DNA of 64,000 nucleotides, taken from the NCBI RefSeq assembly GCF_900169485.1, contig NZ_LT821227.1, positions 1 to 64,000 on the forward strand, given 5' to 3'. The number at the start of each line of letters is the position of its first letter. Position 1 is the first letter of the stretch. Source of the DNA: Phoenicibacter congonensis (lineage in GTDB: Bacteria > Actinomycetota > Coriobacteriia > Coriobacteriales > Eggerthellaceae). The notes under the pieces are model-generated. The model did not search any database, was not told the DNA's origin, and saw only the letters and a list, made by a program, of their open reading frames with translations. Made by a program: the position numbers and the translations under genes. Positions 8,917 through 49,856 of this stretch are shown piece after piece.

Positions 8917-10242
8917 TTATTCTCCTTTTGTTAATTTTTTAACGTCGTCAAGAAAGTGTGGATAGGAAACATCTATGCAGTCAAAATCTTCTACAGAGAT
9001 TGATTTCTTACCCACAAGTCCGGCAATCGCCCAAGTTATTGCCATTCGGTGGTCGCGATGAGAAGGCATAACAAGCCCATCAGGCAAATCAAAGTCAGGA
9101 TCTCCCTCGATAAACAAATCATCGCCATGGGTCCAAACACTTGCGCCAAGCTCAGTTAAACCATCGATTATTGCTTGCAGGCGGTCAGTTTCCTTGGCGC
9201 GAAGTTCTTCGCAATTCCGAAAAACCGTGACACCCTTTGCACAAGATGCAACAAGAGCAAGAATTGGAACTTCATCAACAACTGTTGCGAAATATTTAGC
9301 AGGAATCTCACAGCCCTTGATGTTTGGGGAATATTCAGCGTGAATGTCGCCATAATTTTCCTTGCCTTCCGAGCCTTTCACTTCCCAAGTGATTTTAGCG
9401 CCCATGCGCTCAAGGGTTCGCAAAAAACCAGTTCGAGAGGGGCTTAAAAGCACGTCTTTAACTGTAATAGAGCTCCCCTTTAAAAGAACAGCAAGGCAGC
9501 ACAAAAAAGCAGCAGAAGAAGCATCCCCTGGAACATTCAAATCAGCTGCCTTCATTTGCACAGGTCCTGAAACTTCGGCATATCTGGTTTGAGCAACAGT
9601 TTCAACGCCATATTGGCTCAACATCAATTCGGTGTGAGTCCTCGATTGTTCTGGCTCTGTTACAGATGTCTTTCCATTAGCATAAACCCCAGCAAGCAGT
9701 ACTGCCGACTTTAGCTGCGCAGAAGCCATTGGGCTTTCATATTGAATAGCCTTTAAATTCCTGTTTCCGTGAATTGTAATTGGAAGAGTTTCTGCGCCCT
9801 CCGGAGAGAATTTTGCGCCCATCAACATGAGCGGGGCCGTAATTCGGCGCATTGGTCGCATGCAAAGAGACTCATCACCCGTAATTTCAACCTCGATGTT
9901 CCAAGGTGCCAAAATTCCCATGAGCAAACGTGCCGTGGTTCCCGAATTCATACAATTAATTGGAGCAGCGGGTTGCTTTGGTCCTTTGCTTCCCCAACCA
10001 GTTATCTCTCCAGTAAGAGAGCCATCACTCTGCTTTTTTAAATCTACTTTGGCTCCCAGAGCAGTCACCGCCTCAATTGAAGCTCGAACGTCGGCTGAAT
10101 CTAAAACCCCAGAAACTTTCGAAGTTCCTTCGCTCATTGCAGAAAAAAGAATCGATCGATGTGAGATTGACTTATCGCCAGAAACCGCGACAGACCCTTT
10201 AATTGGACCTGATAGAGGCTCAATTTTAACCGTGTTAGACAT
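8917..10242 (-). CDS. aroA: 3-phosphoshikimate 1-carboxyvinyltransferase (EPSP synthase)
   Basis: Sixth step of the shikimate pathway, joining PEP to shikimate 3-phosphate. At 441 aa it is normal length. Motifs are SGDKSISHRS (residues 21-30), NSGTTARLL (about 100), the PGDASSAAF segment and the C-terminal DHRMAITWAI. The start is ATG with GAGGGGAGA just upstream. It follows rluB by 39 bp and runs straight into cmk. Confidence 0.97.
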   Translation of the reverse strand: MSNTVKIEPLSGPIKGSVAVSGDKSISHRSILFSAMSEGTSKVSGVLDSADVRASIEAVTALGAKVDLKKQSDGSLTGEITGWGSKGPKQPAAPINCMNSGTTARLLMGILAPWNIEVEITGDESLCMRPMRRITAPLMLMGAKFSPEGAETLPITIHGNRNLKAIQYESPMASAQLKSAVLLAGVYANGKTSVTEPEQSRTHTELMLSQYGVETVAQTRYAEVSGPVQMKAADLNVPGDASSAAFLCCLAVLLKGSSITVKDVLLSPSRTGFLRTLERMGAKITWEVKGSEGKENYGDIHAEYSPNIKGCEIPAKYFATVVDEVPILALVASCAKGVTVFRNCEELRAKETDRLQAIIDGLTELGASVWTHGDDLFIEGDPDFDLPDGLVMPSHRDHRMAITWAIAGLVGKKSISVEDFDCIDVSYPHFLDDVKKLTKGE

Positions 10243-10281: not shown

Positions 10282-10998
10282 CTATACAAAAGAGCGCAAT
10301 ATTTCCAGCTCCTTGCCCTTTACTTCGCGCATTTGGCCAGCCTTAACAGAGTCGATTGAAATGTTTGCATATTTCGTTCTTTTAAGAGAAACAACAGGAT
10401 GATTTACTGCAGAAAACATCCTGCGGACTTGCCTGTTTTTCCCCTCGTGAATTGTGATTTCAACAACAGATTCATCTTTATCTGACGACAGAAGCTTGCA
10501 TGAAGCTGGAGAAGTTATAAAATCCCCCAGATCGACACCTCTTCTCAAAACATCAAGATCGCAAGATAAAACATTTCCTTGTACAGTAGCAACATAGGTT
10601 TTACGAACTTCTGATGAAGGATGCATTAATTTAGCACCAAGTTCGCCATCGTTTGTGACAAGCAAAAGGCCGCTTGTGTCAAAGTCGAGCCGTCCAACTG
10701 GAAAAAGTCCAATATGTTCACTTTTAGAAATTAAGTCTTTCACAGTTGGACGACCTTGTGGGTCATCCATAGTGGTAACAAAACCACAGGGTTTATTTAA
10801 AGCTAAGACGACCTTTTCTGCCGCTATTTTAACAACCTCACTATCTACTGCAACAACATCTACATTTTCATCAACACTCGTGCCAAGTTCACTAACCACA
10901 TGTCCGTTTACAGTAACACGCCCTTCAGCAATTATTTTTTCAGAATTACGTCTCGAAGCCACACCACTTCTGGCTAGATATTTTTGCAATCTCATCAT
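10282..10998 (-). CDS. rluB: Ribosomal large-subunit pseudouridine synthase B
   Basis: RNA pseudouridine synthase of the RsuA/RluB family, modifying 23S rRNA. It has 238 aa, with an S4 RNA-binding domain (residues 1-60, RLQKYLARSGVASRR) followed by the catalytic domain carrying GRLDFDTSGLLLVTNDG with the active-site aspartate near residue 104. The start ATG directly follows the scpB stop; a second ATG one codon later is equally possible. Its pairing with scpAB is common in Gram-positive bacteria. Confidence 0.94.
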   Translation of the reverse strand: MMRLQKYLARSGVASRRNSEKIIAEGRVTVNGHVVSELGTSVDENVDVVAVDSEVVKIAAEKVVLALNKPCGFVTTMDDPQGRPTVKDLISKSEHIGLFPVGRLDFDTSGLLLVTNDGELGAKLMHPSSEVRKTYVATVQGNVLSCDLDVLRRGVDLGDFITSPASCKLLSSDKDESVVEITIHEGKNRQVRRMFSAVNHPVVSLKRTKYANISIDSVKAGQMREVKGKELEILRSFV

Positions 10999-11631
10999 TT
11001 ATCTGTCGACATCGTCCGCAAGTTCAGTGTTTCTTGACCTTAGAGCACCAAGACGTTCCGCAATCGAAATTCTTGCGTCTTCGTCTGGTGCAAATTCCTC
11101 AAGTGGAGGCAATTGTTCAATATCAGTTAAGCCAAATGAATTCAAAAATTGTGTTGTTGTCGATAAGAGTGCAGGATTTCCTGCATCTGTAGAGATTCCT
11201 GATTCAAAAATGTAGCCTTTATTAATCAAAGTTGTTACAAGTGAATCAGAATTAACACCGCGAATTTCTGCAATTTGAGAACGCGTAACTGGTTGCGTGT
11301 AGGCAACAATTGAGAGCACTTCCACAGCAGAAGCGGAAAGTTTGCGCCTGTCTTGATCAAGAATAAAGCTTTCGCATGCATCGAAATATTCTTCTTTTGT
11401 AAAAAGCTGATAGCCGCCAGCAACCTCTCTAATTTCTAACGCCGACTCATCTTCAAAGAGATAGTCATCAAGATCAGCAATGCTAAGCTCAATATCTTCT
11501 GCATCTTCTCCAAGGGCTGAGCATAAATCGTCCATCGAGACAGCCCCTTCCGACACAAAAAGGATCGCCTCAATCTTTTGCATCAATTTACGGTCAGACC
11601 TTGTTTTATATTCAGTAATCGCTTCAAACAT
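10999..11631 (-). CDS. scpB: Segregation and condensation protein B
   Basis: Winged-helix subunit of the SMC-ScpA-ScpB condensin that compacts and segregates the chromosome. It has 210 aa, with the typical IEAILFVSEGAVSMDDL start and ALSIVAYTQPVTRSQI-like second winged helix (here VLSIVAYTQPVTRSQIAEI). It lies 13 bp after scpA and is followed immediately by rluB. Confidence 0.95.
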   Translation of the reverse strand: MFEAITEYKTRSDRKLMQKIEAILFVSEGAVSMDDLCSALGEDAEDIELSIADLDDYLFEDESALEIREVAGGYQLFTKEEYFDACESFILDQDRRKLSASAVEVLSIVAYTQPVTRSQIAEIRGVNSDSLVTTLINKGYIFESGISTDAGNPALLSTTTQFLNSFGLTDIEQLPPLEEFAPDEDARISIAERLGALRSRNTELADDVDR

Positions 11632-11644
11632 TTTTCATTCTTTC

Positions 11645-12376
11645 CTATTCTTTTGCTTCAATTTCAATGTCGCCAAATTCACAAACTTGCTCAACATTTA
11701 CAAGATTGCGTTTATACAACTCAAGAACTGCCAACAGTGTTACAACCACAATCTCACGCCGAGGAGATTCTTTAACAAGTTCGCTAAAACGCATCTTTCC
11801 TTCAATCTTGCATCTCGACAAGACAGTTTGTGCAAACACTTCAACATTTAATGGCTTTGATGCAATGTGAGAAGAAGCCAAAAGAAACTGGTCTTTTCGA
11901 CCAAGCAACAATGCAGCCTTCTCAGAAAAAACTACAACTTCAACATCTTTTAAAAAATTCGGGGCTACTTCTTTAAAATCACTTGTTGGACCAAATGTGC
12001 GCGTGATGTGGCGCGTTTCGGCATCAAACATATCATTTAGTCGGGCGGAAACATTCTTGAATTGCTTGTAAACGATCAGCTTTTGAATCAGAAGTTCTCT
12101 TGCCTCTAATGGAGAAAGCATCTCATCTTCTTCTAAAGTGACAATTTGTTTAGGCAACATAGACTTTGCTTTAATTTCAAGCAAAGTTGCCGCTACCAGC
12201 ATAAAATCGGACGCTGTCTCTGTGTCTAAAATAACCATTCTTGACACAATTGCGAGATATTGATCGGTTATCTCCGAAATCGAAATCGAAGAAATGTCAA
12301 CCCGTTTAGATTGAACAAGCTGAAGCAGAAGGTCGAAAGGACCTTCAAAGTTTGCAGTTTTGATGTTGATACTCAA
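11645..12376 (-). CDS. scpA: Segregation and condensation protein A
   Basis: Kleisin subunit that links the SMC heads and binds ScpB. It has 243 aa, with the N-terminal FEGPFDLLLQLVQSKRVDI motif (residues 9-27) and a C-terminal winged helix. The start is TTG at 12374-12376, supported by AGAAGG five to six bases upstream. It is the first of the scpA-scpB-rluB group. Confidence 0.95.
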   Translation of the reverse strand: MSINIKTANFEGPFDLLLQLVQSKRVDISSISISEITDQYLAIVSRMVILDTETASDFMLVAATLLEIKAKSMLPKQIVTLEEDEMLSPLEARELLIQKLIVYKQFKNVSARLNDMFDAETRHITRTFGPTSDFKEVAPNFLKDVEVVVFSEKAALLLGRKDQFLLASSHIASKPLNVEVFAQTVLSRCKIEGKMRFSELVKESPRREIVVVTLLAVLELYKRNLVNVEQVCEFGDIEIEAKE

Positions 12377-41951: not shown

Positions 41952-42368
41952 ATGTCAATCACGACAGACGAAATTCAAGATTTATTCATGAACCAAATTG
42001 ACTGTGGAAGTGTTGTAGCTTCACAATTTTCTGATGAAACAAATAGGTCAGCATCTGACCTAATGAAGGCATGCAGTGGATTCGGTGGTGGTTTATTCTG
42101 CGGCGAGACCTGTGGTGCTATTGCTGCGGCTAACGTGGTCATAGGATTAAAATATGGAATCGACACTCCTGGCGATGAAGAAGGCAAGACGGAACTTATC
42201 AAGAAAGTGAGTGAATTCAACGCAAGAATGCACGAGAAATATCCCAGCTTTTTGTGCACTAATCTTTTGGGGTCTGATCTTGCGACAGCTGCAGAGTCAG
42301 GAAAAATGATGCAGTTCTGTCCCAATTTCTGCAAAGAAGTAATCGACGTCTTAAAAGAAATAATCTAG
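41952..42368 (+). CDS. C_GCAxxG_C_C family protein (first copy)
   Basis: A 138-aa Cys-rich protein of the TIGR01909/C_GCAxxG_C_C family, whose role is unknown but which may bind redox metal. Conserved pieces are NQIDCGSVVASQF (~15), GFGGGLFCGETCGAIAAAN (~40-58), a mid Cys in YPSFLCTNLLG and FCPNFCKEV at the end. A good AGGAGGAAAG site precedes the start. It is paired with a second family member downstream. Confidence 0.88.
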   Translation: MSITTDEIQDLFMNQIDCGSVVASQFSDETNRSASDLMKACSGFGGGLFCGETCGAIAAANVVIGLKYGIDTPGDEEGKTELIKKVSEFNARMHEKYPSFLCTNLLGSDLATAAESGKMMQFCPNFCKEVIDVLKEII

Positions 42369-42538: not shown

Positions 42539-42991
42539 ATGGCAAAAGCAGACACAGCAGAAGAATTATTTCGCGAAGGGTTTAACTGCTGCCAATCAGT
42601 CTACTGTGCATTTGCAGAAGAAATGGGATTAACACCTGCCGAGGCTGCAAAGAAATCTAGTCCCTTTGGAGCAGGGTTCGGGAAGCTTCGGGAAGTGTGC
42701 GGTGCTGTCACTGGAATGGTCATGGTCTTAGGAGAAATGGAGGGCTACAGCGACCCAAAAGACTCTCAAGGCAAAAAGGAGTTATATGAGAAGGTGCGTC
42801 AACTCTGCAATCAATTTGAAGAATCAGAGGGAAGCATCATTTGCAGAGAACTCTTAGGGCTCAAAAAGGGTGAGGAGCTAGAAGAGCCAGCAATTAGGCC
42901 AGCCAATTATTATGAGACTCGCCCTTGTTTAAAAGCTTGTCGTCGTGCGGCAGAAATTTTGGAATGCCACCTAATTAAAAATGCGCTCTAA
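42539..42991 (+). CDS. C_GCAxxG_C_C family protein (second copy)
   Basis: A 150-aa relative of the previous gene with a closer match to the family: FREGFNCCQSVYCAFAEE (~12), GAGFGKLREVCGAVTGMVM (~43-61), SIICRELLGL (~100) and RPCLKACRRAAEIL at the end. An AAGGAGAGAAG site lies before the ATG. It ends six bases from the stop of the converging glycosyltransferase gene. Confidence 0.92.
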   Translation: MAKADTAEELFREGFNCCQSVYCAFAEEMGLTPAEAAKKSSPFGAGFGKLREVCGAVTGMVMVLGEMEGYSDPKDSQGKKELYEKVRQLCNQFEESEGSIICRELLGLKKGEELEEPAIRPANYYETRPCLKACRRAAEILECHLIKNAL

Positions 42992-42997
42992 AAAAGA

Positions 42998-44413
42998 TTA
43001 TCGAATGTCTCTGTATGCCGCAGCGATTTCCTCTATGGGAACGCCGTCGCGATAGGCTTTACGCAGGCGGTTCATCTGCCACATAACTTTTAGCTTTCCC
43101 CCTTCATGATAGCGACGACTCGATGTCTCTATCAGCCCCTTTGCAACACCAATTTTTTCCCCTCGTTGTTTTAAGGTGAGTGAAAGCTGGTAGTCCTCCA
43201 TTATTGGCAAATCTGGAAAGCCACCAATCTCGAAGAAAAGATCTTTTTTAATGAAGATTCCTTGATCTCCGAATACTACCTTTCGGTCATAAATCCTATT
43301 ATTCGAAATTATTTGACAGATTTTCATAAGAGGATCAGAGTCGTCAAACTTCACTCCAAAACATCCCCAGTTGGCTTTCTTCAAAGTTTTACGAACTTGC
43401 TCAACAAGGCTTTTTGGAGGACGGCAGTCGCAATGCAAAAACATGAGAATATCACCCTTTGCAAGCCTGGCAGCCTCATTCATCTGTTTAGCTCGTCCTT
43501 TTTCAGTTCGAATTAATCGCGCGTTAATAGGCAGGTTTTCCTGCAGATAGCCGACAGTTCCGTCGCTAGACCCTCCATCAGCAAAAATAATTTCGGCTTT
43601 CTCAGCTATTGGACCAACGCTTTCCAAAAAAGTAGAAATTGTAGAAATCTCGTTATAGATTGGGACAATGACAGAAACAACGCTTCCGCATAGCCCTGCG
43701 AGCTCAAAACGCGAAGTATCGAAATTATCAAGAAAAACCTTTGTTAAGCTATTCGACGAAAGAAACTCTCTCTTTTTCCACAATTCATAAAAATCAGCTG
43801 GAACATCAACGTCTTTTTCTTCTTTTCCAAGAGCCACATTAAGAGTTTCTTTGCCACACTGTTTTAAAGTGTCGTCTAAAACCGTCTTTTGACCTTCGTT
43901 CTTAACGTGAAAGATGCATGACTTTAGCTCATTCAATCCGACATAGCAATAGCCCCCATCATCAGTTGGGCCAATAACAACATCAGACTCTAAAAGACTT
44001 CTAAACGCACATGATATTGAGTCTGCATCTATGCACGGAACATCGCAGCCAACCAGAACTTTTCGACCAGGCGCCCCGAATGCCCAAGAGTCACTAAAAG
44101 CATTATTCATCCGGTCAAAAATGTCGGTGCCCCGCTGCGGAAATGTGCAAAAAGGAATCGAAATCTCATCGTTTAGAAATGAGCGGAATTCATCTTTGTC
44201 ATCATCTGTCGCTTCTCCATCTTCAAAATAGCAGACATCAACTCGATCAGCAATCGAAGAGATGACCCCTAGTTCATCTGCCATAAAAGAGTAATGAAGA
44301 TTTACACACTCATCGGGTGTCAAAAAAGGACTGAGTCGAGTCTTGGTTTTTCCCGCTACTGGAATTCTAGTGAAAAGGATTATAGTTTTTATGTTTGTAT
44401 AATTGCAACTCAT
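42998..44413 (-). CDS. Fused DUF2064 transferase and family 2 glycosyltransferase
   Basis: A 471-aa fusion. The N-terminal half (1-~215) matches the TIGR04282/DUF2064 transferase: ILFTRIPVAGKTKTRL and a GCDVPCID/GPTDDGGYCYVG core. The C-terminal half (~245-471) matches TIGR04283, a GT2 enzyme: SVIVPIYNEIS, ADGGSSDGT, LIRTEKGRAKQMNEAA, FLHCDCR and GDQGIF. The two are usually called rSAM/selenodomain-associated transferases 1 and 2; the radical-SAM partner is not in this window. Start uncertain: ATG at 44413 fits the family, but its ribosome site is weak, and a GTG 15 codons earlier also exists. Confidence 0.88.
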   Translation of the reverse strand: MSCNYTNIKTIILFTRIPVAGKTKTRLSPFLTPDECVNLHYSFMADELGVISSIADRVDVCYFEDGEATDDDKDEFRSFLNDEISIPFCTFPQRGTDIFDRMNNAFSDSWAFGAPGRKVLVGCDVPCIDADSISCAFRSLLESDVVIGPTDDGGYCYVGLNELKSCIFHVKNEGQKTVLDDTLKQCGKETLNVALGKEEKDVDVPADFYELWKKREFLSSNSLTKVFLDNFDTSRFELAGLCGSVVSVIVPIYNEISTISTFLESVGPIAEKAEIIFADGGSSDGTVGYLQENLPINARLIRTEKGRAKQMNEAARLAKGDILMFLHCDCRPPKSLVEQVRKTLKKANWGCFGVKFDDSDPLMKICQIISNNRIYDRKVVFGDQGIFIKKDLFFEIGGFPDLPIMEDYQLSLTLKQRGEKIGVAKGLIETSSRRYHEGGKLKVMWQMNRLRKAYRDGVPIEEIAAAYRDIR

Positions 44414-44454
44414 TGAATCAATGTATTCTCTAATTTTTAAGCTTGGCACAAACC

Positions 44455-44515
44455 CCACATGTCAGTCACTATTTTAACAGCCTCCAAATTCATGTGTGAC
44501 CCCATTGCCAGGCCC
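44455..44515 (+). repeat. Isolated ATGTCTGTCACC-type repeat cores
   Basis: ATGTCAGTCACT at 44459 and TTCATGTGTGACCCC with its core at 44492 resemble the arrays around gpsA and are spaced 33 bp, like some units there. A further inverted relative, TTTAGTGCCAAACC, lies at about 44560, and ATGCCTAGCACT lies at 45649. Confidence 0.5.
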
Positions 44516-44576
44516 CTTGTCAAAAGACTAACCTCCTCTAAACATAGTGAGAGAAGCATTTAGTGCCAAACCAATA

Positions 44577-45596
44577 TTAAAGCGACACAGATTTCAAATA
44601 ATTAATGTCCAAATAATGACCAAGTTTTTCACGTGTTACGTCATCAAGTATTTCCTTCGAATTGCTTGCATAATCCACACTTGCCTGCGCACACCATGTT
44701 ATTCCTCGCAAACAAGTAAAATTCGCAAACTTCAAACAGCGATCCTTCAAGCCATCATCTTTAAAACGACCAGAAATGTCGTCGATGTATTCGCCAACAA
44801 AATCAATCTTCTCACTCTGCGTGAAGAAAAAGTCGGTTTTCCAAAATGTAGTGGTGTCTGCCAAAAAGTGCCCGATGTCTTGAGCGGGGTCGGCAATCAG
44901 CGGCTTTTCCCAGTCAATTAAATAGCTAGGCTCAGAATCGCTTTCATTTATTAAAAAATTAGTGTTGTTAACTTCGGTGTTAATGATTGAGAAATGATTG
45001 TTTATCTCTCCAAGTCGAACAAGTGTCTTCTCAGCCTCAGAAATTAAACGCACGATTTGGGCCTTAATTCTAGACTCGCAGATGCTAGATTGGAAATAGA
45101 CTGCCGCCATCTTTTTGCATTCTGCAAGCATTTCAGCAAATGCATTGTTTGCTTTTATTAGGCCAGTGTTGTCGGGGATTGGAAATGAATGAATGTCAGC
45201 AAAGATTGAAGCAGCTTCGCTAAGATGGCATCGTTTCTCATAGTCGAGTTTAACGCCAGGAAGAAATTCCTCTACCAATACGCCATTTCTGCAAAGTGAG
45301 CGAGACCCATCACAGTAAAAAGCCCTCGGAGTTCGATTACATTTCTCAAGGGCTTTTAAGCCAGAATATTCATATTCAATTTGATTCTCGATTCCCATTT
45401 GAGAACCACGCTCAACCCGAAGCAACAATTTTTTGTGCGTTGTGGGGTGCTCGAAAATAAAATTTTGGTTATATTCGCCATGTGCAAAGTCGGAATATTG
45501 TTCTTCTACCTCCAAGGGCAGTAAAAGCGCTTCCCGATATTGCCGAGAAGACACAACTTTTGAAAGTCCTGGGATGGCATTTAAACATTCATTCAT
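44577..45596 (-). CDS. Aminoglycoside-phosphotransferase/choline-kinase-like protein with altered catalytic loop
   Basis: A 339-aa protein with the APH kinase fold. The nucleotide-binding lobe is seen in FAHGEYNQNFIFEH and KLLLRVERGSQ. The Brenner motif, HGDxxxxN in active enzymes, reads NTEVNNTN near residue 207, so the His and catalytic Asp are replaced by Asn and Glu. The metal-binding DFG-like site is kept as LIDWEKP. It could be a divergent kinase or a nucleotide-binding pseudokinase. It follows the CCG protein gene by 200 bp, with AAAGG upstream of its ATG. Confidence 0.8.
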   Translation of the reverse strand: MNECLNAIPGLSKVVSSRQYREALLLPLEVEEQYSDFAHGEYNQNFIFEHPTTHKKLLLRVERGSQMGIENQIEYEYSGLKALEKCNRTPRAFYCDGSRSLCRNGVLVEEFLPGVKLDYEKRCHLSEAASIFADIHSFPIPDNTGLIKANNAFAEMLAECKKMAAVYFQSSICESRIKAQIVRLISEAEKTLVRLGEINNHFSIINTEVNNTNFLINESDSEPSYLIDWEKPLIADPAQDIGHFLADTTTFWKTDFFFTQSEKIDFVGEYIDDISGRFKDDGLKDRCLKFANFTCLRGITWCAQASVDYASNSKEILDDVTREKLGHYLDINYLKSVSL

Positions 45597-45796
45597 AACA
45601 TTTGCCTTTCAGACATTGTTTTAATGCAGAAATTATCACCTAAAAATTATGCCTAGCACTAAAGCTCAATATTTAATGTATTCACGTTTCAAGTTCGTAA
45701 ATAACACCTAAATAAAAAAGGCTTAACTCGAAATGGACTTAAAAAAATAATCATTGGAACTGCGCACAAAAGCGAAGCACAGAGCAATGAGCTCGG

Positions 45797-46570
45797 CTAC
45801 ACAACAGGATTGCAGTTTTTTGCAAACTTGCATTTTGCCCTGTTCATAAAAGCATTCTTAGAATCAGGCACTTCATTAACACCAAGAATTAACGATAAAA
45901 CATGGGCACAGTTATCATTGCCCAAACGCGAAAACTGTCCAAGGCATGAAGCGCAATAGGTGATAATTGTTTCGTTTTCTGCAGCGTCCATGACCTTATG
46001 AGTGCATTTCTGAACGGATTTAGGGCCTTTTGCCATAATTTCAGGCAAAAGACCACAGCACGGAACCTTTGACATCGTTTCCACATTCTCAAATGAAACA
46101 CAACTTCTAACTTCTGATTCGAGCTCGTGGGCAGGTCGATCAGGACACGGAACAAAGAGTTTTCCGTGTACCTCGGCAACAGAAGTCGAAGGTTTAAGGT
46201 CTATCTCTTTTAGATATTCATAAATTGAAACAACTGGCAATTGCAAACGCCCACGCATTAATTTCCAACAATTAGGACACAAAACAACTACACGCTCACA
46301 ACCAATCTTTTTAAGCCTTTTCTCTATTCCGCGCAGAACACGATCCGTGCCGCCATGAACTCCATAGCCATCCAATGGATGACCACAACACGCATATGCA
46401 ACTCCACATCCGTGATCGTTGCAAACTTTGGCAATTGCCTCCATTGTTTTTGGGAATTGAGAAGGAAACGCACATGCTGGAAACAAGACATCTTTGCATT
46501 TTTTAGAAGGATAGCACTTGAAAGGATAATGCCCTTTTTCAAGGCAAATCATTTTTGTAGAAAAACTCAT
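45797..46570 (-). CDS. CCG-domain Fe-S protein (heterodisulfide-reductase-related)
   Basis: A 257-aa Cys-rich protein with two halves typical of HdrB/GlpC-like cysteine-rich domains: CCGHPLDGYGVHGG (~60) with VLCPNCWKLM (~98), and VPCCGLLPEIMAKGP (~168) with YCASCLGQF (~205). These usually hold a non-cubane Fe-S cluster and take part in thiol/disulfide or quinone electron transfer. Its start overlaps the TVP38 stop (TAATG), so the two are made together. Confidence 0.87.
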   Translation of the reverse strand: MSFSTKMICLEKGHYPFKCYPSKKCKDVLFPACAFPSQFPKTMEAIAKVCNDHGCGVAYACCGHPLDGYGVHGGTDRVLRGIEKRLKKIGCERVVVLCPNCWKLMRGRLQLPVVSIYEYLKEIDLKPSTSVAEVHGKLFVPCPDRPAHELESEVRSCVSFENVETMSKVPCCGLLPEIMAKGPKSVQKCTHKVMDAAENETIITYCASCLGQFSRLGNDNCAHVLSLILGVNEVPDSKNAFMNRAKCKFAKNCNPVV

Positions 46571-47259
46571 TATTCAATGTTCGCTTTCTTCTTCAAAAAA
46601 TAGGCTATCAAAAGTGTGACAATCAGCAGGATAGCCGCAAAACCAAAATAGAGAAGTCGGTTGTCAGCATCAAGCAGCCCAGCTGAAGCTACTGTGTAAA
46701 CTGCAGTCCCCGGAATCATAAAAATTGCGGAATAGAGCGTGTATGAAAAAAAGCTTATGTCTGTTATTCCATATGCAAAATTTTGAAGGTTATAGGGAAA
46801 AATCGGAATCAGCCGCGTGATTGCAAGGAGATAAATGTCACTTTTGTGAGCTCCCTCAAAAAACAACTTGTTAAGCTGCCTATTCTGAGACAGTTTTGGC
46901 TTTAGCGAATCTTTCAAAAAATAACGTCCGACAAGAAATGAAACCATTGCGCCAAGCGTCACGGCGAGCCAACACAAAAAAGTTCCAGTAATCGCGCCAA
47001 ACAAAGTGCCTGCCGCAATTGCAAAAATAACGCCAGGCAGGGCCAAAACTACACATCCAATTATTGATAACACTACATAAATGATTCCAGTTGTAACAGG
47101 ATGCTCAACTAGCATCGATTTGAGCCAGTCTATAAATTGGCCATTAGCAATCATGTCAGACCAACCAAAAACAAAATTCAAAACTACAATCAAAACTACA
47201 AGCCCCAAGAAAACAAGGAGCTTGTAGTTTTTTTTACAAAATTCGAGAGCCGAAGCCAT
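46570..47259 (-). CDS. TVP38/TMEM64 family membrane protein
   Basis: A 229-aa polytopic protein of the DedA/VTT superfamily. It has an N-terminal membrane segment (~13-30), the VTT core GVIFAIAAGTLFGAITGTFLCWLAVTLGA-like region (GTLFGAITG at ~85), FLVGRYFLKDSLKP and RLIPIFPYNLQNFAYGIT. Relatives act as lipid scramblases or in membrane stress; the role here is unknown. It lies two bases after a second TVP38 gene and is coupled to the CCG protein. Confidence 0.92.
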   Translation of the reverse strand: MASALEFCKKNYKLLVFLGLVVLIVVLNFVFGWSDMIANGQFIDWLKSMLVEHPVTTGIIYVVLSIIGCVVLALPGVIFAIAAGTLFGAITGTFLCWLAVTLGAMVSFLVGRYFLKDSLKPKLSQNRQLNKLFFEGAHKSDIYLLAITRLIPIFPYNLQNFAYGITDISFFSYTLYSAIFMIPGTAVYTVASAGLLDADNRLLYFGFAAILLIVTLLIAYFLKKKANIE

Positions 47260-47261
47260 GA

Positions 47262-48743
47262 CTATTCCTCAACAGAGGTTTCCGATTCTTTGGTTACAAA
47301 AGACTCCGAAACATTCTCTTTAACTGACTCATCAGATTCTTTTACCGAATTAGAACCACTTGAGATTGCTTCTTCTTCAATTGGCTGCACAGGAACAACA
47401 TCGGCCTCAGCCCTAGATTGGTTAGGTTTCGCCTTTCTGCGCGTGTTGAATTTGCCTTCAGCATTAACTTCAATCGCAGACTTTCCATTTGCAGCAGCTT
47501 CAGCATCTGCAGTCTCGTTAGATTCATCCATGAGTTCCTTATGACGTGATTTCCAAACGAGCGCAAAAAACCAAACTACGCCCGCAATGATAAACATCAT
47601 AATCATGGCCATAAACACGGTGTAAATCTCACCTGTCAAGGTTGATCCTACATAGGAGTAAACAATAGTTGCAGGAAGCTGGCCAATGCCTGTCCAAATA
47701 AAGAAGTCAAGAAAACTCATGCCTGTAATGCCAGCAGCATATGAAATGTAGTCAAAAGAAACAAATGGAAGAAGGCGACAAATGAGAATCGCATTTTTGC
47801 CATACTTTGTAAACCATCTGTCAACACTAGCCAAAGCACCTCTGCTCATAAAAAGCATAACGGCGTCGCGTCCAAATAAACGTGCAATATAAAAACAAAT
47901 TACAGCCGCAAGCATAGCTGATGACCAAGAAAGAATCGCTCCCCAAACCCAGCCAAAAACAGCAGCGTTTGAAAAAGTAATCAAGAAAGCAGGAATTGGT
48001 GCAGCTAGAGACTGGAACACCATCAAGAAAGTAGAAACCAAAGGTCCCCAAACACCTGTTCCTCTAATGAGTTCTTTTACCTTTTCAATGTCACCAGCTG
48101 ACAAAAGATTAAAGACATATCCAATTGCATCATGAACTGGCTGATAGAAGCTACAAACTAAAATTATTACAAAAAGAATGAAAAATGAAATCCACTTGAC
48201 GCGACTTTGGTAGATTGAGCGTCTTCTCTCTTCTTCGTCCTCATATGGTTTTTCAGGGGCTTTATGGACAAATTCGTAAACAAAAATAGCAATGCCACCA
48301 AGAACAAAGAATGCAAACAGTAACCAGGACACCATTTGAATGTTCCAATGGAAAACAATACCGAAGAAACCGCGCTTCGTGAACATGCCAAGTGCGCGCA
48401 CAATATGCGCAAAATCAGCTCCATAGACGATAATCGCAAACATTATCGTGCACATCACTGAGCCCAGAGTTCCTCTCCAGCCAACACCACGGCGATGTCC
48501 ACGTCCTCCATAAATCGCTCCAGCAAGACCAATCAAGAACACATACCAAAAGATGTATCCAAAATATGACATCTGAATGCTTGTCTGACCGAAGCAAAAA
48601 TACTCAACCGTGCAAGCCCAGCAAAAAGAGACATAAACATAGGAAAAATATTTCATGAATGTCTCAAGTTTTTTAACACCTGTCGTTCTGGTGTCAGGTT
48701 CAATCACCTTTTCCGCTTTTTCTTTCCCCTTTAAAAGGGCCAT
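47262..48743 (-). CDS. Large TVP38/TMEM64 family membrane protein
   Basis: A 493-aa protein. Residues ~30-200 form about five membrane segments not found in ordinary TVP38 proteins, followed by a VTT core (~235-400: GVWGPLVSTFLMVFQSLAAP, FYIARLFGRDAVML, CRLLPFVSFDYISYAAGIT) and a ~80-residue cytoplasmic tail rich in Glu, Ser and Val. It has a GGAGGTAA ribosome site. It is placed between the lipoprotein gene and a normal TVP38 gene. Confidence 0.9.
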   Translation of the reverse strand: MALLKGKEKAEKVIEPDTRTTGVKKLETFMKYFSYVYVSFCWACTVEYFCFGQTSIQMSYFGYIFWYVFLIGLAGAIYGGRGHRRGVGWRGTLGSVMCTIMFAIIVYGADFAHIVRALGMFTKRGFFGIVFHWNIQMVSWLLFAFFVLGGIAIFVYEFVHKAPEKPYEDEEERRRSIYQSRVKWISFFILFVIILVCSFYQPVHDAIGYVFNLLSAGDIEKVKELIRGTGVWGPLVSTFLMVFQSLAAPIPAFLITFSNAAVFGWVWGAILSWSSAMLAAVICFYIARLFGRDAVMLFMSRGALASVDRWFTKYGKNAILICRLLPFVSFDYISYAAGITGMSFLDFFIWTGIGQLPATIVYSYVGSTLTGEIYTVFMAMIMMFIIAGVVWFFALVWKSRHKELMDESNETADAEAAANGKSAIEVNAEGKFNTRRKAKPNQSRAEADVVPVQPIEEEAISSGSNSVKESDESVKENVSESFVTKESETSVEE

Positions 48744-48790
48744 CTATTACCTCCATAATCAATTAACCAAAGCTAACCCACCGAACATGA

Positions 48791-48821
48791 AGATAGCCAC
48801 AGTGAGTTGCCGTGGCTATCT
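48791..48821 (-). terminator. Hairpin between lipoprotein and TVP38 genes
   Basis: Arms AGATAGCCAC and GTGGCTATCT enclose an 11-base loop. The following T-tract is poor on the minus strand (TCATGTT), so it may act as an attenuator or an mRNA end that lets part of the transcript continue into the TVP38 genes. Confidence 0.6.
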
Positions 48822-48858
48822 TTCAAATTAATTTAAATAGACGCTTTCAAGCAAGGCA

Positions 48859-49578
48859 TTAAGCCTTAGCTTTGAATGTAACTACAACTTTAGTTCCGCC
48901 AGCTGGGAGGACGTCCTCACGACCGTTGAACCAAGTGTAGTTAGTTGCTGTTGTTGTGTTTGATTCCCAAGCAGCGTCAGAACAAATTCCAACTGCACAG
49001 GAGTCGAGGCAAAGTACGCATCCGGTATTCTTTGCTTTTGCACGATCAATGTTGCCTCCAAATCTCCAGTCGGCTTGTCTCTGCTCGCCATTCGTTGTTT
49101 TGAAGCATTTCTCAATTGGGAAAGGATCTTTTCCGTCCCACTGAATTGTAACGTCAAGCTTGTCGCCCTCGATAGATTTTCCCTCACCAGGAGCCGCAGA
49201 CATATCAGCAGCTGTTAGATTGTTTCCAGGAGTGAAACCGAGATCCATCATGTCTTGATAGAACTCTTTTTCATCGCCAAGACCAGTGAGAACAGACTTG
49301 TCTCCATTCGAACCGCCCTTGTATACAATTGCATGGCGTGTGTTTTCGGTGAAGTAAATGTCATTTACTTCAGCAAGGTATCTAATCTCTTTTTTCTCTT
49401 TGTCAACGACGATAGGCTTTGATTCAGTTGGCATTTCAACAGATTCTTTCTTTGTATCATCGCTCTTTTGATCACTTGAAGAAGAGCCGCATCCCACAAG
49501 TGCGAAAGCAAGAAGCGCTGCACATGCAGCAACTACAGCAAGCTTAATCCAAGACATAGCTGTCTTTGAGTTATTCAT
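48859..49578 (-). CDS. YdjY-like lipoprotein
   Basis: A 239-aa exported lipoprotein. It has a signal peptide with lipobox LVGC (Cys30) followed by Ser/Asp/Lys linker, then a YdjY-like domain (IRYLAEVNDIYFTENTRHAIV, then FYQDMMDLGFTPGNNLT) and a C-terminal Cys cluster (CVLCLDSCAVGIC) that could bind a metal or Fe-S centre. The YdjY assignment rests on recalled motif pattern. It has GGGAGG before its ATG and is first of the group running to the glycosyltransferase. Confidence 0.75.
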   Translation of the reverse strand: MNNSKTAMSWIKLAVVAACAALLAFALVGCGSSSSDQKSDDTKKESVEMPTESKPIVVDKEKKEIRYLAEVNDIYFTENTRHAIVYKGGSNGDKSVLTGLGDEKEFYQDMMDLGFTPGNNLTAADMSAAPGEGKSIEGDKLDVTIQWDGKDPFPIEKCFKTTNGEQRQADWRFGGNIDRAKAKNTGCVLCLDSCAVGICSDAAWESNTTTATNYTWFNGREDVLPAGGTKVVVTFKAKA

Positions 49579-49856
49579 ATTTCCTCCCTATAAAAGATAA
49601 TCCCATCCAAAATACAATTGGAAGAGAGACATAATTCCCCCGCAGACACGGGTAATGCAGATCGGTTTCCTGAAGCAGAAAGCGTCTATGAAAAATTTCA
49701 AAAAACCTGAACTATATTATAGCACTGTTAAGAAAAAGTCATTCAAGCACGCCACAAAAAACACACAGCAAAGACGCTGTAAAAACAACTTTCACACTTG
49801 CATTGCTAAAGCACAAAGCAAAGAATATTGGCAGGCTAGTTAAAAACCCACAGATG

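Follow-up and report, generated by a model that had tools for sequence, protein, structure and literature searches.

A conserved YdjY-TVP38 gene block in Phoenicibacter congonensis and its kinship with the E. coli ydj-ynj operon

What do a YdjY-domain lipoprotein, two TVP38 membrane proteins, an Fe-S protein, a kinase-fold protein and a fused glycosyltransferase (GT) have in common? The question is raised by six same-strand genes of Phoenicibacter congonensis. They lie in the first 64,000 nucleotides of contig NZ_LT821227.1 (assembly GCF_900169485.1); this whole stretch is called the window below, and the complete genome of the species (1.45 Mb) is called G000. Judged by sequence comparison, the block represents a family-specific form of a membrane module that is widespread in anaerobes and whose best known relative is the E. 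coli operon ydjXYZ-ynjABCDEF. We are highly confident of the identity of the gene set and of its conservation, and we consider it quite probable that the six genes serve one functional pathway.

A first-pass annotation of the window had named these six genes, together with two redox genes converging on them. All eight open reading frames were found at the places noted, and profile matches bear out their families. Read from its 5' end, the block and its surroundings are as follows.

49764..49781, minus strand: terminator-like hairpin between priA and the YdjY gene (consensus scan and sequence; weak evidence)
48859..49578, minus strand: YdjY-domain lipoprotein (NF040466, 138.4 bits, cut-off 50; lipobox Cys)
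47262..48743, minus strand: TVP38-1, a TVP38/VTT protein of YdjZ type with additional N-terminal membrane segments (PF09335, 90 bits)
46570..47259, minus strand: TVP38-2, a TVP38/VTT protein of YdjX type (PF09335, 81 bits)
45797..46570, minus strand: HdrB/GlpC-like CCG protein (PF02754, 36 bits, two stretches)
44577..45596, minus strand: APH/choline-kinase-like protein with an atypical active site (PF01636, 31.6 bits, above cut-off)
42998..44458, minus strand: fusion of TIGR04282 (CofC-like GT-A domain; 138 bits, cut-off 134) and TIGR04283 (GT2; 235 bits, cut-off 182)
42539..42991, plus strand: convergent C_GCAxxG_C_C redox protein (PF09719, 109 bits)
41952..42368, plus strand: convergent C_GCAxxG_C_C redox protein (PF09719, 77 bits; 80% identical neighbour in locus L044)

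Both transferase families exceed their curated cut-offs within one chain. The fusion probably starts at ATG 44413 rather than at GTG 44458. The predicted TAATG overlap of the TVP38 and CCG genes is present at 46570 and recurs in G001, a genome of the same genus. Inspection of the sequence also reveals TATAAT at 49716-49721 and a strong Shine-Dalgarno sequence 5' of the YdjY gene. The hairpin and this TATAAT lie between priA and YdjY and, taken with the Shine-Dalgarno sequence, suggest that the unit begins with YdjY; in our consensus scan, however, such sites were no commoner than in shuffled sequence.

Is this one group of genes or a chance neighbourhood? When relatives were compared, the genes were neither scattered nor reduced to the TVP38-CCG pair, and the proposal of one conserved functional group survived. 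In G001 the same six genes stand in identical order with tight spacing and one convergent C_GCAxxG gene; a counterpart of the second (42539..42991) was not seen in the G001 block that was fetched. The proteins of the two genomes are 68-90% identical (80% for the YdjZ-type TVP38), with nonsynonymous divergence (dN) of 0.08-0.27 and synonymous sites at or near saturation. All six genomes of the family found with YdjY (the window genome, G001, G002, G225, G246 and G284) have YdjY-YdjZ-YdjX-CCG-GT. In G002, G225 and G246 this series is followed, in the same cluster, by YnjB-permease-permease-YnjD-APH, while G284 carries the importer, APH and a nucleoside hydrolase, along with a GT gene, at a distance of 25 kb.

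YdjY is rare in the class (9 of 298 genomes). TIGR04283 occurs in eight of those nine, always within about 10 kb of YdjY, against 21 of the 289 other genomes (p=2.6e-8; this and all other co-occurrence p-values ignore the relatedness of the genomes), and in the window's own family it was found, at E below 1e-40, only in genomes with YdjY. Synteny and co-occurrence together rule out a chance neighbourhood. The YdjY tree groups the six same-family sequences in a single clade amid those of Bacillota, while the remaining three from Coriobacteriia fall elsewhere; YdjY was therefore likely acquired at least twice in Coriobacteriia. A short open reading frame of the relative G021 (L048:7679-8470), beside hydrogenase genes, fuses a piece of TVP38 to the end of TIGR04283 and looks like a deletion remnant of the operon.

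The kinship with E. coli, whose genes run ydjX-ydjY-ydjZ-ynjA-ynjB-ynjC-ynjD-ynjE-ynjF, can be followed protein by protein. E. coli YdjY is 37% identical to the window lipoprotein. The TVP38 pair was typed on orthologues from relatives: those of TVP38-1 are about 47-54% identical to YdjZ and those of TVP38-2 32-39% identical to YdjX, their best E. coli match, the window copies being 42-80% and 53-90% identical to these orthologues, respectively. YnjB of G002 scores above the NCBIfam YnjB cut-off; searches of entire genomes found YnjB in G002, G225, G246 and G284 and not in G000 or G001. Shared with E. coli, then, are the lipoprotein, both TVP38 types, YnjBCD in the same cluster of the window's close relatives and an anaerobe setting, for FNR activates ydjXYZ-ynjABCD, whose function is unexplained (PMC3688515). 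The gene order differs, however; the window adds CCG, APH-like and GT genes, and it lacks YnjA, YnjB-D, YnjE and YnjF. Because YdjY, two TVP38 proteins and YnjBCD already belong to the E. coli operon, the group, which the annotation had put forward as a candidate undescribed one, is not wholly undescribed. In a genetic-interaction screen ynjABCDEFI group with the Suf genes of Fe-S assembly (PMC3930520).

COG0398 DedA proteins, YdjZ among them, have been proposed to be phospholipid scramblases (PMC10127716). The window pair shares the VTT domain and YdjZ/YdjX orthology with these TMEM41B-like proteins. COG0398 overall has been tied to aerobic metabolism (PMC10127716), whereas the window pair keeps a fixed partnership with YdjY and CCG in anaerobes. 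An undecaprenyl phosphate (UndP) flippase of the UptA type (COG0586 DedA) was considered and rejected (44 bits against an NCBIfam UptA cut-off of 250).

How far does the module extend? Scanning GTDB genomes with a YdjY alignment yielded 80 loci from anaerobes, and neighbours were counted over 95 loci including the window: TVP38 (77), TIGR04282/83 (29), CCG (28), YnjB (25), YnjF (16), ArsS-like (14), YnjE (13), C_GCAxxG (10) and APH (9). Two of the 14 ArsS-like copies, in Thermincola and Desulfosporosinus, belong to genomes in which no ArsS exceeds the cut-off. The entire gene set of the window, plus YnjBCD, is present in the clusters of Catonella, Terrisporobacter and C. carboxidivorans; the transferase homologues are fused in Catonella and separate in G002 and others, and YnjE is in the cluster in G146 and Catonella. 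Where APH occurs in a YdjY locus it is accompanied by GT and CCG (five of five dereplicated YdjY loci having APH). Among loci with YnjB, YnjF (8) and GT with APH (4) are never found together. Carriers of the module include anaerobes of the mouth and gut, sulfate reducers, Brachyspira and Enterobacteria. Several Desulfobacterota loci have SelD and YedF beside YdjY-TVP38; on Desulfobacterota-type contigs these genes lie within 10 kb of the pair at L109:4790-5833 and L094:12617-13240. Brachyspira loci L127, L130, L132, L136 and L138 carry two or three tandem YdjY copies each, and in 31 loci of Desulfobacterota and Clostridia a small membrane protein without a family is encoded directly 3' of YdjY (L099:3107-3556, L113:10558-10932, L119:10643-11044).

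In YdjY, C187xxC190xxxC194, H82 and D192 are invariant in 51 homologues. Its AlphaFold2 model has a pLDDT (predicted local distance difference test) of 89 overall and about 98 in the core; neither a profile search nor a fold search with the model gave a PDB match (best E 1.6). The CCG protein has two complete CX(n)CCX(n)CXXC motifs (residues 33-101 and 142-209), as do CCG proteins of the HdrB/GlpC/TfrB type, and a search for a solved structure gave none. It differs from that type in that no flavoprotein or quinone partner adjoins it and that the version of the window's family has no ferredoxin motif. In most of the versions from Clostridia and Brachyspira a ferredoxin domain is present; the window's family has lost this N-terminal domain.

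The APH-like protein shares the overall fold and the D-W-E motif (D228-W-E) of choline/ethanolamine kinases and the APH family, but has N206-T207-E208 in place of HxD and R60 in place of Lys. The N-T-E motif is kept in the operon's homologues from Clostridia to Coriobacteriia, and the stand-alone relatives that were examined have variants of it. With a medium-confidence model, Foldseek matches ethanolamine/choline kinases best (E 2e-7), and also N-acetylhexosamine kinase and MTR kinase. The protein is a pseudokinase or else a kinase of unusual type. NCBIfam matches for MTR kinase, thiamine kinase and lanthionine synthetase were weak or lacking, and these identities were rejected. A literature search for TIGR04282 and TIGR04283 gave a single paper that touches on them in passing.

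What might such an assembly do? The partners that recur elsewhere are the YnjBCD importer, nucleoside hydrolase, ArsS, C_GCAxxG, the YnjE rhodanese and the CDP-alcohol transferase YnjF. Away from YdjY and GT, APH is accompanied by YnjBCD and a nucleoside hydrolase of the IU type in the Coriobacteriia G186, G057, G008, G007 and G234, and by the hydrolase without YnjBCD in G291 and G285; G146 has all of these together without YdjY. At the G008 locus (L182:1466-9000) a CCG protein also stands beside the hydrolase, YnjBCD and APH-like genes, in a genome without YdjY or TIGR04283. PMC12159101 cites the finding that ArsS joins a 5'-deoxyadenosyl group to arsenic; its product is therefore a nucleoside. 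ArsS and TIGR04283 also co-occur (21 of 29; p=5e-13). Among 35 YdjY genomes, three have both YnjB and ArsS, 15 YnjB only, 11 ArsS only and six neither (p=0.006). YnjBCD and ArsS thus tend not to share a genome, as would be expected of two interchangeable sources of a nucleoside, and to import or make a nucleoside is the simplest reading of this pattern.

We tentatively suggest a membrane pathway in which a sugar derived from a nucleoside is attached to an acceptor in the envelope, helped by Fe-S and thiol redox chemistry. A nucleoside would be taken up through YnjBCD or produced inside the cell by ArsS, which joins 5'-deoxyadenosyl to its substrate; cleavage would then yield a pentose, plain or 5-substituted. 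Handling or activation of this sugar would fall to the APH-like protein and the CofC-like domain, the TIGR04283 domain would transfer it to a membrane acceptor, and the scramblase-like YdjX/YdjZ pair would move the product across the membrane. The cytoplasmic Fe-S protein CCG and, on the outer face, the Cys3-His site of YdjY may supply electrons or thiol/chalcogen chemistry. In some lineages YnjF might replace GT plus kinase.

Several observations weigh against this pathway. The APH-like protein may not be a kinase, since the usual catalytic Asp is missing. The 200 bp gap between the CCG and APH genes could hide a separate promoter, and the p-values disregard kinship. G000 has neither ArsS nor YnjB. 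The absence of the radical SAM partner, already noted for the window, extends to the entire genome, where TIGR04167 has no match above cut-off. Because the block is intact and constrained even so, the window species likely has a third source of substrate or a changed one.

A bolder version, which we regard as rather less than probable, is that this is a new anaerobe pathway, with the E. coli ydj-ynj operon as one branch, making a nucleoside-derived pentose conjugate of the envelope from a YnjBCD- or ArsS-supplied nucleoside, and relying on a kinase-like enzyme whose active site has been re-made and on a lipoprotein that binds metal and whose fold is unsolved. More generally, the module brings four orphan elements into one testable system: the FNR-activated E. 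coli operon, the transferases of the 'arsenosugar' families, the nucleoside-linked importer and the lipoprotein of unsolved fold. The E. coli K-12 operon makes it testable immediately, and it would reveal what the anaerobe branch of TMEM41B-like DedA proteins moves.

Metalloid or selenium chemistry could instead be the main role, a possibility that comes in two forms and that, over both together, we rate about as high as the nucleoside pathway. ArsS, ArsM, SelD and YedF as neighbours in other genomes give it indirect support. The annotation's interpretation is supported in part: the group is conserved, and in other anaerobes C_GCAxxG proteins and ArsS turn up again within this cluster or close to it. 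Its proposed coupling to glycolipid assembly and to thiol or metalloid redox stays inferential.

In the first form, which we think unlikely, the TVP38 pair would move oxyanions of the selenite kind or reduced species, with YdjY and CCG reducing or carrying them, C_GCAxxG and rhodanese would hold sulfane or selenide, and GT and kinase would be a later add-on. This would accord with the Desulfobacterota loci mentioned above, with the recurrence of YnjE and C_GCAxxG in YdjY loci, with an in-frame TGA in many ArsS copies and with the three invariant Cys and one His of YdjY. SelD is present in all nine YdjY genomes of the class, but it is common anyway (205 of 298 class genomes; p=0.06), so that it is not convincing as a marker, and it is missing from most YdjY loci. 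The nucleoside hydrolase, GT and YnjF partners are left unexplained.

The second form, synthesis of arsenosugars or other organoarsenicals proper (ArsM-ArsS-GT) with TVP38 exporting an arsenolipid, strikes us as less likely still. It has in its favour two transferase domains above the arsenosugar-family cut-offs, ArsS near YdjY in other anaerobes, a TGA-containing ArsS elsewhere in the G001 genome, and G287 (L183:7136-15829), in which an APH-like gene adjoins an ArsM-like gene with ArsS 7 kb away. An ArsM-like gene lies at 606.8 kb in G000, 560 kb from the block (223 bits, below the cut-off of 263). With ArsM-ArsS-TIGR04282-TIGR04283 loci the window shares both transferase families, here fused; it adds YdjY, the TVP38 pair, CCG and an atypical kinase. 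Against this form stands the lack of ArsS in G000. Coupling of ArsM to ArsS as a general rule was rejected, as Catonella, Brachyspira and Syntrophus have ArsS without ArsM; there, ArsS may act on another substrate.

In a region of G000 contig 1 (about 603.9-607.6 kb; L165:5865-9621) the ArsM-like gene overlaps a gene for a radical SAM protein of BioB type. Genes for an ABC transporter adjoin them; SaoA and SaoP are the best matches of its ATPase and permease, with scores under the cut-off. Orthologues of these transporter genes (57% identity) adjoin ArsS in G287 (L183).

A further candidate, and an improbable one, is nucleoside salvage with an unrelated GT half: a 5'-deoxynucleoside-type substrate would enter through YnjBCD, be split by the hydrolase and receive a phosphate from the APH-like protein. 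Kinase-based salvage of 5'-deoxynucleosides is known (PMC6079011, PMC10986504), and APH-YnjBCD-hydrolase stands alone in several Coriobacteriia. Yet the window keeps APH without YnjB and alongside GT, and the constant company of GT and CCG in YdjY loci with APH speaks against an unrelated GT half. Equally improbable is a decaying remnant deprived of its substrate supply: the lack of YnjB and ArsS from a complete genome and the broken gene of G021 would fit, but all open reading frames are intact, and the protein identity to G001, with low dN against synonymous sites at or near saturation, points the other way.

Apart from the block, the window contains short intergenic repeat arrays with the core TATGNCTGGCACC (positions 1671-2098), which appear again 600 kb away at L165:5308-5865, 9768-10210 and 10832-12287.

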